Shown one piece after another: positions 39,078-45,818 of a stretch of DNA of 64,000 nt; position 1 is the first letter of the stretch; each line of letters starts with the position of its first letter. The notes under the pieces were generated by a model. It ran no database searches, was not told the DNA's origin, and saw only the letters and a list, made by a program, of their open reading frames with translations. This DNA is from Chitinivibrionales bacterium. GTDB taxonomy: Bacteria; Fibrobacterota; Chitinivibrionia; Chitinivibrionales; WJKA01. The position numbers were made by a program, and so were the translations under genes. The stretch spans positions 1 to 64,000 of the forward strand of contig WJLZ01000141.1 of NCBI GenBank assembly GCA_014728215.1, read 5' to 3'.

Positions 39078-42000
39078 ATGGCTGACCAGAAAAACAGCGG
39101 ATACACCAGGCTCCTTATTGCAGCATTCTTTCTTGCAGGAGCACTTTCGACCTTTGCGCAGGATTCAACCTATACCATTACCGACTCGTGCAACAAAGCC
39201 TATGCACGCGTGGCGGTAAAAGATTCGACCGGTGCTCCTGAGAGTGAAATACAAGCCGTGGTCTTTGTACGCCGGGAATCGGGGAGGAAAATCGAAGCAT
39301 TCAGGGAAAGCGAAAATATCTTTTCGATCCCGGAGCTTCCTTGCGGCACCTACGACATTTATTTGCCGGCATCTAAATATCCCGCGCAATTTTACAATCC
39401 CGCACAAAACACATCCCAACCGGAATACGGCGTCTGGATCGGCGATACGGATACTCTTTATCTTGATATTTACATGACCATGGCAATCTCTTTTGACGGC
39501 AGTATTTCGGGATATATCCAGGACAGCACCATGCTGCCTGCATCGGGCACGGCAGTTGAACTCTATTCGCCTTCAGATCTAACCGCCCCGCAGTTTACGT
39601 CAACGACCGATTCCTTGGGATGGTTTACTTTTGCCCGGCTTCCGGAGCCATCCTATTACCTGAAAATACCGGCAACAGGCGGCTATCCCGACCAATGGTT
39701 CACCCACAACGGCAATACCGGTTCGCCATCATCGACTATATCATCATCCACCTATGGGGAAATCTATGTAGAACTCGCACCGAACCCGCCAATGGCAACA
39801 TCGGTAATCTACTTTGTCATGCGTGATGAAAACGGATCACCCTATTATGGTACCGAACATATCGAATTGCACAACAATTTCAAGGGAATTTATTACGGTA
39901 CCGAAAAACTTTACAACAAAGATACACTCGAAGCCCGTAACCTTCTTCCTGGTAACTATGAAGTGGCAATCTATTCTTCCTATCCGACTCAGTTCTGGCA
40001 TGCAAATGCTAACACATCCCGCCCCGATACTTCTTTGCCGGTGGCTGAGAGTGATACTATGGTTATTCCCGTTACCATGAATCCCAATCCTCAACATATG
40101 GTCACCATTATGGGTTCCCTGTTCGACAGTCTGTCGGGCCCGGCCTCTTCAATGACCCTGAGTCTCTGCGATGTTAAAGATCCGAGCCGGACAATCTACA
40201 CGGCGTTAAGTGATCGGGAGGGAAATTATGTATTTCCTGATATCAACGAAACAGAATACTACCTGAAAATTGAAGGCGCCGGGTATCCCACCCAGTGGTG
40301 GTGCCAAAATTATTCATCTCCATCAACCGCTCCCTTTTGTCCATTCTGGGTGCACGACAGCATGCATAATTATATTTATCTAACCCAGGCCCCGGTTGCG
40401 GCGAATGGATATCTGAGCTGTGTTCTTACCGATGAAAAGGGTATCGCGGTCTCAAATGTCAATAACATTCAACTGAGGTCCACCGATAATTCGGGCCTGT
40501 ATAAGGACGGCGCCTCTGTTTCGGAGGGAAAATATGAATTCGCCAACCTCCCCCAGGGTGAATATCAGATAGAAATCTGCGCCGACTATTATCCCTGCCA
40601 GTATTATGATCCAAAGGGCAACACCTCGGAACCCGACTATTTTTTCAATCTTTCGGGAACCGATTCGATGACACTTGAAATCGTTATAACTCCGGCCCCG
40701 ATTTTCAAAGGGGCTATCAAAGGACATCTGGAATCGGATCCAAATGATGGATCCATTATCAGCGGGGCGACAATTTCACTCTATTCCCCTGCCGATACAA
40801 CACAACCAGCCTTCACTTCTTCTACCGATTCTACAGGAAGATTTGTATTTGACAACTTACCTGAGCGTGAATATTTTATCAAAGTATCCCCTTACGGGCA
40901 GTATCCCGAACAATGGCTGGGCTATAATAATTCCAGTACCCAAGAGGCTGTTACTCCTGTATACGCAGATCCTTACACGGATTCATGGTACACGCTTTCC
41001 CTGAATCCATCGGTGGGCCCCATGCTCACGGTGACGGTTAAGGATTCTGCGGGAGAACAATTGTATGCTCATGATGTTTTTCTCTATGAGGAGGGAACCG
41101 GCCAGACTTATCATGGTATGCAATCGTATAGTAAATCTACCGGCGAAAGCAACATGACATTCTTTTTTGAGGATATTCCTCAAGGCACCTACGCCTTGCA
41201 TGTGGCGTCCGACCGGTATCCTCCTCAATTTTACAACCCATCGGGCAACACTCCTGAACCAAGTTACGTTTTCCCCGTGAGTCCGGACTCCGCTGTGGTT
41301 ATCGAAATGTATTTGACCTACGATAAAACGCAGCCGATAGCCCCTTCTTACGGTGGTGCAATCAGCGGCATGGTAACTGATAAATCGACCGGCACAGGTA
41401 TTCCTTATGCGTATGTGGGCGTTGTTTACGGTGAAAAGGATATGGATTTCAATCCGAGCGAGTATGGGGCGATGTTTTCGGCAAAAACCGACAGCACCGG
41501 ATCGTACACGATCGGGGGAATTGAGGCCGGCTCTTATTTTGTCTATGCCCTTACTCCTGGGAAAAATTATGTGCCCCAGTTTTATCAGGCTGTTGATAAT
41601 TCCCGCAATGCACGGATTCTCACTATTGTCGACTCCAATAAAATCGAGAACATAGATTTCATTCTGCGGCAGGGCGCTATTCTGGCCGGTCGTGTTTCGA
41701 TGAAAGACGGGACACCGGCTGCTGAAGCAGGAGTCAGTCTGCACGGTCATGATATCAATATCTGGCGCAATACCGTTACCGATTCGCAGGGACGATATGT
41801 CTTCAGAGGACTGCTTTCAGGCACCTATTCACTCAATGCTCGGGGCAATGGCTATTTCCCGTCAACCGATACCATTTTTCCCGAGTATACACTCACCGAA
41901 GGCGACAGTATCGAAGCAGGCGGTCTCATGGTGGAAGCAGGTGGAATTCTTAGGGGTATGGTGACTATGCAGACGACCTCAAACGATCCTTCAGGGTACG

Positions 42001-45000
42001 GCATGCCTTTCCGCATTTACCTTTACCCGGATTCATCACAGGACGATGGAAAGATGCTATGGCCCCGCGAAATGCTTCATGCCCGCACGGAATCCGGCGG
42101 CTATTATAATGCCGATATGACCCGTCCGGGTGACTGGCGTATGGTTTTTGTTCCCTATCAATCGCATACAATCACCGAAACGACCACTACCTCGAACACA
42201 AATTTTATCCAAGGCAACGGATGGTCCCTCGCACAGACTGCGACCGGCCTATCGCAATCGCCGCTGTTTACCGTATCTTCACGGGACACCACAATGATAA
42301 ATGTTGCATTTCGAAAGGGATATTCGGTTTTCGGCTCTGTTTCTACCGAAGATGGCGCTTATGTGAGCACCCGCGATTTAAATCAGCAGATCGGTTTTCA
42401 CTGCAATGTTTTTGTCAAGGAAAACGATTCGTATTATCTGATTTCCGAGGGGCACATGCGGTCCGACGGCAAGTTTGAAATTCCGGGCCTTATCGACGGC
42501 AAAGATTATTATATCAGCGCGGGGGCGGACGGTTATCCACATCAGTTCTGGTCTCCCACCGGCGCCAACAACACCGAGCCAAAGGAGCCATACCACTTTT
42601 CGACTACCAGTTTCATTCCCCTGAAAATCGTACTCGAATCCAATCCCGAAGGGTATTATCCTCACCACTACGAGCCGGTATCAATCCACTCCTTTGTTGA
42701 TTCGCTGAATCAGTTCTGGGTTGAGATGCAAATCGACCGGAGTCTCGACCTGGATTCGCTCACCCTTTTCAGCACCGATGAATCGGGCGTGGTTTCAAAA
42801 GTATACTCAACGGTTCTCGACAGCTCACGCTCTAAATTCAAATGGCGGGAGACACGCAACAGTTATTCGGTCCAGTACCGGTATATTGCACTGGCATACG
42901 GACCGGAAGCGTCATACAGGTCTTCGATTTTATACTATGATCTGCAAAACAGCCGGACAGTGCCCGACGATTCATTGTGGCTCGATGTATCAGGCCGCCC
43001 GTTTGGTATCCAAATAACCTGGGGCGCCGGAAAATCCTATGAACCTCTTGAGACGGATACTATCCTCATTTACCGGCGCCCCGCAGGCGCCACCAACTGG
43101 AACGAACTCCATCGCCGGGTAGCCTGGGACCAGTGGCTTGATGATCACGAGTGGGATGACCGCAATGATTCGGGCGTAACCTATCAGTATAAGGCGGGAC
43201 TCCTTTACAAGGGTACAATTGCCAGATGGTCGCCGGTTATTTCTTTTACCATAAGCGACCAGTTTATAGACCAACTTGCCCGGGGTGAGGAGCTTTTGGT
43301 GGGTCCGAACAGGCGCTACACCACAATTCAGGAAGCGATCAATGCAGCTGAAGATTATGACCGGATTATCGTAGAACAGGGTGAATACATCGAAAACCTC
43401 TCTATCGGTACCAAAAAGATCGAACTCAACGGCATGTGGAACGACAACAAGCCACCCATAATCAATGGAAACGGCGGCACCGGCATTTCAATCGACTTTA
43501 CCGCCGGTTCGGGGCAAGACTGGTATGAACGGTGTCGAATCTTCGGATTCAAATTCAAAAACTGTGCAGTTGCTGTCAAGACAGGAAGCGAAGTTGAGAT
43601 CTCTCAATGTTTGTTTGCAGGCGGTTCAGGTGTTGTTGTCGATATCGACAGTGCGGCTATGACGGCGGCAGTAAAAAGCGACCCCTTTGCTCCTGCTGAG
43701 ATCCATGCCAACCTGTGGGCCTGTACTTTCATCGGGAAATCCACCACCGACAAGGCGATTACCCTTACGGCGAAAGGTCCGGCGGTTTCGAATGATTCAC
43801 TCCCTTCCGATCAATTCATGGGGCCGATTTCGACTGTCCCGCCCATGATCATGCGGTCCAATGCCCATATCGGCAATTCCATTTTCAGCGGCTATGGACC
43901 ATCAACACCTTTTCAACTGCACCAGGCAACATTCCTTCATATGCATAATGCCGATTTCTGGCCTTCGAACAGTAAGCTGGCTGTTGAAAATATCGAACTC
44001 TCGGGCACGATTGTTTCTGTAGATCCACAATTTATTGATACGACCTTTTATCTGCTCTCCGCAACATCACCACTCAAGAGCAGCGCGTCCAATGGAGAAC
44101 CGATGGGTTATGATTCATGGCATCATGAAGGACCGCCTGCCTATTATAACGATGCTCCGGGACCTGTTGAAAATTTCACGGCCGGTATGGCAAGTCTCGA
44201 TGCAGTAGCACTTACCTGGTCCCCGCCGGCAGGATCGACCTCGATTGCATTCTATGCAGTATACCGGGTGGACGGCAATCCCGATCTCTGGTATGTTAGA
44301 AATGATTCGGAATGGGACATGAAACAGGGGATGGATCAGGAACCCGACCCGATCGGGACAACAACCAAAACATCGTTTATTGACTCTACGGTAACGCCGG
44401 GCGCCAAATATATCTATGCGGTTGCGGCTATCGATGCGGATTCGAACCACGGCGAGATCCGTCTCCCCTATCCGCCTCCCCTGGAGAATTATATCGTGGA
44501 AGTTGGTTATGGCGCCTGTAGTAAAATTCAATCGATACCCCTGAAAGGCAAGCAGTGGCACATGATCGGCCCTTGGGGACTGGGTTCAATTACTCCGCCG
44601 GTATCGGAGAATCGGCATATTTACCGGTGGGACGACACTAAAACTCCGGATAAGCTTTACGATCAGTATATTTCATCATCCACAATGAAAAGCGGCAAAG
44701 GTTACTGGTTTTTCAGCGAGACCGATACGACGCTCAATATTACCAAAGCGTTTTACGACAGTCTGGCGCAGCAACGTGGCGGCGTTCAGATCGAGTTGAA
44801 ACATGGAGAAAGCGGCTGGAACCAGATCAGTTCACCCTATCCCTTTCCTGTGGCTCCCGACTGGCTTCAATCGTTCCAGCCCAATGCCTGGGTCGGCGGG
44901 ACTGAAGGATACACCGGTGATGTGCGGTATCTCAAGCCCTGGCAGGCGGTGTGGGTCTATACTCCCCGTGACACGGTGCTGACTATCGAGGGAAAAGCAT

Positions 45001-45818
45001 ATATTCCAACGATGCAGCCCCTTGCTAAAACCAAAAAACAGACCTTCTGGGAAGTACAGGTTTCACTCGCCGGACCGTCAACAAAGGACCAGAACAATTA
45101 CCTGGGAGTTCTCCCGCCGCACCTTGCAAAATCCACAACCGCCCATCGCATGGAACCACCGCCGGCATTCGGGTACCCGAATGTTTACTTTGTAAAATGT
45201 GGTGATGCAGCTCAGGCAGCGCTCAATCCTGAAGAACGGCTGGCGCGGCACTATAAAGCTTCTGCCGAAATCCCCAACGGTAAACTCGAATGGATGGTCG
45301 GCATGTCACCGTCAGACAAAGAAACCAGCCTCAAGTTCGATGGCCTTACACAGGTCCCCGACCCCGTACTGGTATTCTGGGTCACCAATGATACGGCAAT
45401 CAATCTGCGGGAAACCGACGAAATAACCATGCCGCCCCACGATAATTCACGCTACGGTTATGTGGTGGCGACGGCAAATCCACTGGATATCGCACTTTAC
45501 ACCGGAAAGTTCCATCTTCGGAAAAATTTCCCCAATCCTTTCGGAAATATCACTACCCTCGAGTACGTGGTTCCCTATGCCTGGAATAATAACGGTTCCA
45601 AAGCGGCCGGGGAATTCCGTGACCTCTCGCTGAAAGTCTATGATATCAAAGGACGGTGTGTCGCCACCCTGACCGAGGGCAAGGTGAAAGTCGGTATTCA
45701 CCGGACAGTCTGGAACGGCACAAGCAGTTTCGGCAAGAACGTCGCTACCGGTTTTTATATCGGACGGCTTATGACAAAGGGATTTCATAAGACCATTAAG
45801 ATGATGAAGGTTAAATAG
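39078..45818 (+). CDS. Giant secreted multidomain repeat protein with C-terminal sorting-like tail
   Basis: The 2246-residue protein has a signal peptide (about 1-28, ending LSTFAQ). Residues about 38-940 are beta-sandwich units of about 100 residues. Seven carry a YPxQ[FWY] motif spaced 99-105 residues apart, followed by a more diverged eighth (YVPQFY). They alternate between two types and resemble carboxypeptidase-regulatory/SpaA-like folds. Two further such units and an unassigned region run to about 1400. A right-handed beta-helix follows (about 1405-1685, YTTIQEAINAAEDYDRIIVE). Then comes a fibronectin-III-like domain (about 1690-1795, VALTWSPPAGST). Two unassigned beta domains follow. 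The last 105 residues (KNFPNPFGNITTLEYVVP, LKVYDIKGR, ATGFYIGRL) match a FlgD-like/type IX sorting tail. Function is probably adhesion or polysaccharide binding; no catalytic motif is certain. A strong AGGAGA site precedes the ATG. Confidence 0.9.
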   Translation: MADQKNSGYTRLLIAAFFLAGALSTFAQDSTYTITDSCNKAYARVAVKDSTGAPESEIQAVVFVRRESGRKIEAFRESENIFSIPELPCGTYDIYLPASKYPAQFYNPAQNTSQPEYGVWIGDTDTLYLDIYMTMAISFDGSISGYIQDSTMLPASGTAVELYSPSDLTAPQFTSTTDSLGWFTFARLPEPSYYLKIPATGGYPDQWFTHNGNTGSPSSTISSSTYGEIYVELAPNPPMATSVIYFVMRDENGSPYYGTEHIELHNNFKGIYYGTEKLYNKDTLEARNLLPGNYEVAIYSSYPTQFWHANANTSRPDTSLPVAESDTMVIPVTMNPNPQHMVTIMGSLFDSLSGPASSMTLSLCDVKDPSRTIYTALSDREGNYVFPDINETEYYLKIEGAGYPTQWWCQNYSSPSTAPFCPFWVHDSMHNYIYLTQAPVAANGYLSCVLTDEKGIAVSNVNNIQLRSTDNSGLYKDGASVSEGKYEFANLPQGEYQIEICADYYPCQYYDPKGNTSEPDYFFNLSGTDSMTLEIVITPAPIFKGAIKGHLESDPNDGSIISGATISLYSPADTTQPAFTSSTDSTGRFVFDNLPEREYFIKVSPYGQYPEQWLGYNNSSTQEAVTPVYADPYTDSWYTLSLNPSVGPMLTVTVKDSAGEQLYAHDVFLYEEGTGQTYHGMQSYSKSTGESNMTFFFEDIPQGTYALHVASDRYPPQFYNPSGNTPEPSYVFPVSPDSAVVIEMYLTYDKTQPIAPSYGGAISGMVTDKSTGTGIPYAYVGVVYGEKDMDFNPSEYGAMFSAKTDSTGSYTIGGIEAGSYFVYALTPGKNYVPQFYQAVDNSRNARILTIVDSNKIENIDFILRQGAILAGRVSMKDGTPAAEAGVSLHGHDINIWRNTVTDSQGRYVFRGLLSGTYSLNARGNGYFPSTDTIFPEYTLTEGDSIEAGGLMVEAGGILRGMVTMQTTSNDPSGYGMPFRIYLYPDSSQDDGKMLWPREMLHARTESGGYYNADMTRPGDWRMVFVPYQSHTITETTTTSNTNFIQGNGWSLAQTATGLSQSPLFTVSSRDTTMINVAFRKGYSVFGSVSTEDGAYVSTRDLNQQIGFHCNVFVKENDSYYLISEGHMRSDGKFEIPGLIDGKDYYISAGADGYPHQFWSPTGANNTEPKEPYHFSTTSFIPLKIVLESNPEGYYPHHYEPVSIHSFVDSLNQFWVEMQIDRSLDLDSLTLFSTDESGVVSKVYSTVLDSSRSKFKWRETRNSYSVQYRYIALAYGPEASYRSSILYYDLQNSRTVPDDSLWLDVSGRPFGIQITWGAGKSYEPLETDTILIYRRPAGATNWNELHRRVAWDQWLDDHEWDDRNDSGVTYQYKAGLLYKGTIARWSPVISFTISDQFIDQLARGEELLVGPNRRYTTIQEAINAAEDYDRIIVEQGEYIENLSIGTKKIELNGMWNDNKPPIINGNGGTGISIDFTAGSGQDWYERCRIFGFKFKNCAVAVKTGSEVEISQCLFAGGSGVVVDIDSAAMTAAVKSDPFAPAEIHANLWACTFIGKSTTDKAITLTAKGPAVSNDSLPSDQFMGPISTVPPMIMRSNAHIGNSIFSGYGPSTPFQLHQATFLHMHNADFWPSNSKLAVENIELSGTIVSVDPQFIDTTFYLLSATSPLKSSASNGEPMGYDSWHHEGPPAYYNDAPGPVENFTAGMASLDAVALTWSPPAGSTSIAFYAVYRVDGNPDLWYVRNDSEWDMKQGMDQEPDPIGTTTKTSFIDSTVTPGAKYIYAVAAIDADSNHGEIRLPYPPPLENYIVEVGYGACSKIQSIPLKGKQWHMIGPWGLGSITPPVSENRHIYRWDDTKTPDKLYDQYISSSTMKSGKGYWFFSETDTTLNITKAFYDSLAQQRGGVQIELKHGESGWNQISSPYPFPVAPDWLQSFQPNAWVGGTEGYTGDVRYLKPWQAVWVYTPRDTVLTIEGKAYIPTMQPLAKTKKQTFWEVQVSLAGPSTKDQNNYLGVLPPHLAKSTTAHRMEPPPAFGYPNVYFVKCGDAAQAALNPEERLARHYKASAEIPNGKLEWMVGMSPSDKETSLKFDGLTQVPDPVLVFWVTNDTAINLRETDEITMPPHDNSRYGYVVATANPLDIALYTGKFHLRKNFPNPFGNITTLEYVVPYAWNNNGSKAAGEFRDLSLKVYDIKGRCVATLTEGKVKVGIHRTVWNGTSSFGKNVATGFYIGRLMTKGFHKTIKMMKVK
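39190..41680 (+). repeat. Four alternating A/B pairs of about 100-residue repeats
   Basis: The YPxQ motif falls near residues 100, 202, 301, 402, 504, 609, 713 and 830. Odd units (A) have Q followed by F or Y and then an N-T-x-x-P step (for example QFYNPAQNTSQPEY, QYYDPKGNTSEPDY). Even units 2, 4 and 6 (B) begin with an I-x-G strand (SISGY, TIMGS, AIKGH), have a T-D-S-x-G-x-F turn and read QW. The eighth unit keeps the B start (AISGM) but is longer and reads QFY. The higher period is therefore about 205 residues, or about 610 bp. Confidence 0.75.

Follow-up and report, generated by a model that had tools for sequence, protein, structure and literature searches.

Introduction

The staphylococcal surface proteins SasG and Aap carry E and G5 domains, two structurally related beta domains that alternate along the chain and can form a stiff rod (PMC4458895). 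Higher-order periods arising from unit types in a fixed order are likewise described for nebulin and titin (PMC1553488, PMC10665226), and the former account also states that domain repeats are often extended by several domains in one step. Neighbouring homologous domains diverge, probably against misfolding (PMC4660218), and an argument from low identity has also been made for a bacterial giant protein, Bap of Acinetobacter (PMC4647330). Here we report the analysis of a giant protein encoded in a 64,000-nucleotide stretch of DNA from a Chitinivibrionales bacterium (hereafter the window), for which an original prediction had proposed an alternation of two kinds of units, each of about 100 residues.

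Results

The giant open reading frame (39078-45818, + strand; 2246 aa) carries the array at its N-terminal start and is laid out as a signal peptide, the array of A and B units, unit T8, R9-R11, Fn3-like and beta-helix-like stretches (labelled mostly by eye, with weak matches to NosD and fn3) and a FlgD-Ig C-terminus. The signal peptide (aa 1-27; 39078-39158, +) is likely, as judged by eye from a charged start, a hydrophobic run and AQ-D. The array consists of seven units of about 100 residues in the order A-B-A-B-A-B-A (39180-41330, +): A1 (YPAQF; 39180-39491), B2 (YPDQW; 39486-39797), A3 (YPTQF; 39783-40094), B4 (YPTQW; 40086-40397), A5 (YPCQY; 40392-40703), B6 (YPEQW; 40704-41015) and A7 (YPPQF; 41019-41330), all on the + strand and all assigned by motif, scores, profiles and tree, with a structure model in addition for B4 and A5. 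The array is closed by T8 (YVPQF; 41334-41681, +), a unit of a third class, and is followed by R9, a canonical CarboxypepD_reg domain (41676-41951, +). R11 (YPHQF; 42318-42644, +), an outlying unit nearest to A5 (Smith-Waterman score 109), is located past the end of the array, downstream of T8, R9 and R10; it is kept in relatives and is perhaps an early displaced A-like unit. A 255-aa open reading frame on the - strand (40983-41750), antisense to B6 to R9, is probably a chance open frame.

The motif YPxQ[FWY] occurs at aa 101, 203, 302, 403, 505, 609 and 714 of the giant protein and once more at aa 1153, and the eighth unit has the related YVPQF at aa 831; the spacing is 99-105 aa for the first seven units and 117 aa to the eighth. 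The units had been described as other than uniform tandem copies, and they do split into two classes without overlap of scores: Smith-Waterman scores among the window units are 78-191 within a class and 34-77 across classes, with mean identities of 28% and 19%. The partition into odd and even units ranks first among the 35 possible 4/3 partitions of the seven units. The observed even-minus-odd lag score is reached by 144 of 5040 unit orders, which are all of the parity-preserving orders, and self-comparison gave a period of about 200 and not about 100 residues (lag-band similarity 6.76 vs 1.06). As had been noticed, units 1, 3, 5 and 7 read QF, QF, QY and QF followed by NTxxP (4/4), and units 2, 4 and 6 have I-x-G and QW (3/3). 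The proposed order ABABABAB holds as strict turns over seven units, but the eighth unit is T, which makes it ABABABA plus T. Unit 8 was considered as a fourth B and rejected: it has I-x-G like B, yet falls in the T clade. As a non-alternating control we took one of the six records of a plasmid search (20-23% identity), a single array of carboxypeptidase regulatory-like domains, 7366 aa long, encoded on a plasmid of Priestia megaterium; unlike the array of the giant protein, it is a one-unit repeat, with its strongest lag at 88 residues (one unit) and comparable values at multiples.

Both classes of units are predicted to be transthyretin-like beta-sandwiches, in line with the carboxypeptidase-regulatory fold assumed at the outset. 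PF13620 (CarboxypepD_reg) scores 169 bits over the whole protein, with A units lower than B units. Scored unit by unit against the gathering cut-off of 32.3 bits, only B6 (33.2), T8 (33.2) and R9 (50.7) lie above it; B2 (29.0), B4 (23.7), A5 (21.2), A7 (18.9) and A1 (12.7) lie below, and A3 and R11 gave no match. The model of the pair B4-A5 (14 rows) reached a pLDDT of 91.2 and a pTM of 0.81, and that of B4-A5-B6-A7 (five rows) a pLDDT of 74.3 and a pTM of 0.38. The B model matches the transthyretin-like domain of carboxypeptidase D (5aq0; Z 10.3, rmsd 1.9, 78 residues aligned), and the A model matches SlaB (8qox; Z 9.5, rmsd 2.1, 86 aligned) and a DUF3823 protein (4eiu; Z 8.5, rmsd 2.3, 87 aligned). 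The motif is placed differently in the two halves of the pair model: in B it is on a strand (67-72), and in A for the most part in the loop immediately after a strand (158-166, then 172-173). Foldseek ranked tandem domains of CnaB/SpaA pilins and TIE proteins highest for both models (6fwv, 3phs, 4oq1). Most multi-domain matches have an rmsd above 10 (3phs 8.0), so that single domains match, but the arrangement does not. CnaB isopeptide domains carry a Lys-Asn/Asp isopeptide bond with a catalytic acid.

The repeat region matches 15 of 100 near-kin genomes and the C-terminal two thirds matches 16 of 40 genomes of the order (own genome counted in both), many of these matches falling in generic domains or in a C-terminal module that is shared. 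Repeat arrays were read in ten genomes, own included; G001 was left out because its contig ends inside the gene. At least four alternating units are present in five genomes, and the length of the array varies. With profiles trained on the window, G031 and G026 read B-A-B-A-B-T, as does G027 with its fifth unit tied, G002 reads B-A-B-A-T with its first unit tied, G012 B-A-T with its first unit leaning to A, and G009 ...B-A-T, cut by the contig end; profiles from other clades assign the tied or leaning first and fifth units to B, except G026_u1. G003 reads ?-B-A-T with its first unit unplaced, and G004 has two units of ambiguous class. The arrays are short, so that order tests are incapable of small numbers: 12 of 120 unit orders score as high as the observed one in G031 and in G027, 36 of 120 in G026 and 8 of 24 in G002. 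G007 is without alternation (60 of 120), and in G002 the lag profile favours about 100 over about 200 residues (3.18 vs 2.01), whereas unit scores favour lag 2.

A and B units stay unmixed in phylogenetic trees of the 50 units from the ten genomes once eight unplaced units (G007 u1-u5, G004 u1-u2 and G003 u1) are set aside; these were also left out of most A/B counts. This second tree, with bootstrap values only partly settled, yielded clades for A (15/15; 94/80), B (17/17; 91/82) and T (10/10; 100/99). In the first tree, which includes the full set of 50, the T units group as a single clade (100/100), the A units form a clade with one unassigned unit (96/75) and the B units one with several (90/94), G007_u5 falling within A and G007_u3, G007_u4 and G004_u2 within B. 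Profiles trained on other clades, after masking of six motif-site residues, assigned 28 of 29 units to the right class (all but G026_u1), although the relatives' class labels came from window profiles and array position, so that the test is not wholly independent. All seven window units were classified correctly by profiles trained without the window, and the A and B profiles are themselves homologous (hhalign probability 99%). The two outcomes named beforehand as refuting the original prediction, classes mixed in a tree and unrelated profiles, were both checked for and did not occur. On sequence comparison, the A/B split predates the families sampled within the order. T occurs once per relative and closes the array.

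The classes also differ at single residues. In these counts, as in the profile test, the B class excludes three units of family f4 (u5) that are B-like and come late in the array, which leaves 14 instead of 17. Trp follows the motif Q in 11/14 B units and 0/15 A units, and a Pro stands three residues past the post-Q aromatic in 13/15 A units. The first-strand Gly is present in 14/14 B, 10/10 T and 0/15 A units, the Gly of D-x-x-G-x-F in 14/14 B, 10/10 T and 5/15 A units, and that of LPxGxY in 12/15 A, 10/10 T and 1/14 B units (the B count read from alignment rows); thus T has all three, and A and B lost complementary ones. B-to-A junctions have a proline in 14/14 cases, and the matching column at A ends has one in 9/15 (11/15 by eye).

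In several relatives the gene is flanked by HDOD and SNF symporter genes on one side and a CDP-alcohol phosphatidyltransferase gene on the other, recurring neighbours that mark it as the same gene by position. A paired B-A profile gave any match in 35 of 167 genomes of the phylum, with near-full pairs confined to the orthologues (G000, G002, G003, G009, G012, G026, G027 and G031; weaker in G007) and mostly short generic domain matches elsewhere. Outside the phylum, tblastn with single-protein queries gave zero relatives; these scans use few exact peptide patterns, so that absence does not follow. In G028 (G028:C234:1-9150), a 2267-aa open reading frame has the same C-terminal half with another N-terminal repeat, rich in GWF/GWY and presumably InlB-like, where the giant protein has its A and B units. 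Some 420 C-terminal residues (window 44550-45815) recur in a second giant open reading frame in many relatives, and the own genome has one with that tail as well (G000:C32:60749-62014; 27% identity); judged by sequence, these frames form a second giant family that has this tail.

The C-terminal FlgD-Ig domain (45621-45758, +; PF13860, 29.4 bits, cut-off 27) is a probable type IX sorting signal. The same genome has a gene for the translocon component SprA_N (PF14349, 99.3 bits, cut-off 27), and the sorting-tail models at the C-terminus score below their cut-offs (TIGR04183, 18.3, cut-off 23; PF18962, 17.2, cut-off 27). The giant protein is probably exported, and together these results make it a probable cargo of type IX secretion.

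Discussion

We lean, with some confidence, towards reading the N-terminal array as a rod of two anciently diverged, alternating subfamilies, closed by T, on a probably type IX-secreted surface protein. A and B would take strict turns as subfamilies of a single beta-sandwich of transthyretin-like (CarboxypepD_reg/CnaB-type) fold, with a single T domain at the end, and the length of the array would have changed mostly by order-preserving blocks. The alternation itself may be kept since neighbours of unlike sequence probably misfold together less, by analogy with other repeat proteins; the B-to-A junction may be a specific interface, possibly a further reason for alternation. Such a rod could hold out the N-terminus or space the later domains off the cell, and YPxQ[FWY] would have a structural role at the sandwich edge and not a catalytic one. 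Counted against this reading are the lack of alternation in G007, the unplaced units of G003 and G004, the lag profile of G002, the misclassified G026_u1 and the sorting tails below cut-off, as well as, for the shape of the rod, the low pTM of the four-domain model.

Arrays of PF13620 domains share the predicted fold, and three domains of the giant protein exceed that family's cut-off; the window differs from them in A units that all score below it and in its two alternating subfamilies. Two domain types in strict alternation are found here as in SasG, a likeness of layout and not of kinship, whereas SasG has single-layer sheets, a Gram-positive anchor and an E domain that is disordered alone. 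Nebulin and titin share the higher-order period, but are eukaryotic, consist of other domains and have a longer super-repeat.

The original prediction had proposed duplication of a 200-residue pair, and this stands in part. By score, block A1-B2 finds its best match in A5-B6 (123, 191), and B2 and B6 are sisters (98/95 in the second tree), but A1 and A5 do not pair in this way; with the A and B trees in conflict, a clean pair duplication was not accepted. A purely neutral history, in which tandem copying of one ancestral A-B pair left the alternation as an unselected relic, draws on the same block match and sister units, on relatives whose arrays differ in length but keep the order, and on the duplication of several domains at once being the usual mode for domain repeats (PMC1553488). 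We nevertheless consider it fairly unlikely to be the whole account: the window A units are not sisters in the pattern of their B partners, class-specific residues are conserved across the order, and units u1, u2, u3 and u5 of family f4 group by position, which indicates an array that is old and stable in f4.

The high pTM of the pair model and the invariant proline at B-to-A junctions are what one would expect if B-A were a structurally obligate pair joined at one specific interface, coupled into a stiff rod like E-G5 of SasG, where alternating related domains are coupled by interfaces (PMC4458895). The four-domain model, however, has a low pTM, and A and B each resemble complete sandwiches, unlike the disordered E of SasG; we regard the obligate pair as unlikely. 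A stronger form, in which an ancestor with three glycines split into complementary halves that are poor as neighbours of their own kind, obligate as a B-A pair and part of a stiff rod evolving in pairs, builds on the Gly lost at the first strand and often at D-x-x-G-x-F in A and at LPxGxY in B; it seems to us improbable. The two classes might also present two ligand-binding faces, A with Q[FY] followed by P and NT and B with QW, each binding different things. The class-specific Trp and Pro would suit this, but A and B units match zero known ligand-binding Pfam families above cut-off, and conserved strand-side aromatics can serve as packing residues, which leaves this explanation very improbable.

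The strict alternation had been thought undescribed. For carboxypeptidase-regulatory-like domains, a literature search that reached a minority of subscription journals returned zero accounts of it; as a principle, alternating or multi-domain super-repeats are already in print (PMC4458895, PMC1553488). The parts and the principle are known, and what appears to be new is that two transthyretin-like subfamilies alternate, in a conserved manner, within one family of orthologues. It is an uncommon layout made from very common parts, with a turn order kept across several bacterial families while the length varies. The array offers a natural case in which to ask whether selection against misfolding favours unlike neighbours, and A and B are matched parts for studying and building beta-sandwich rods on Gram-negative cells.
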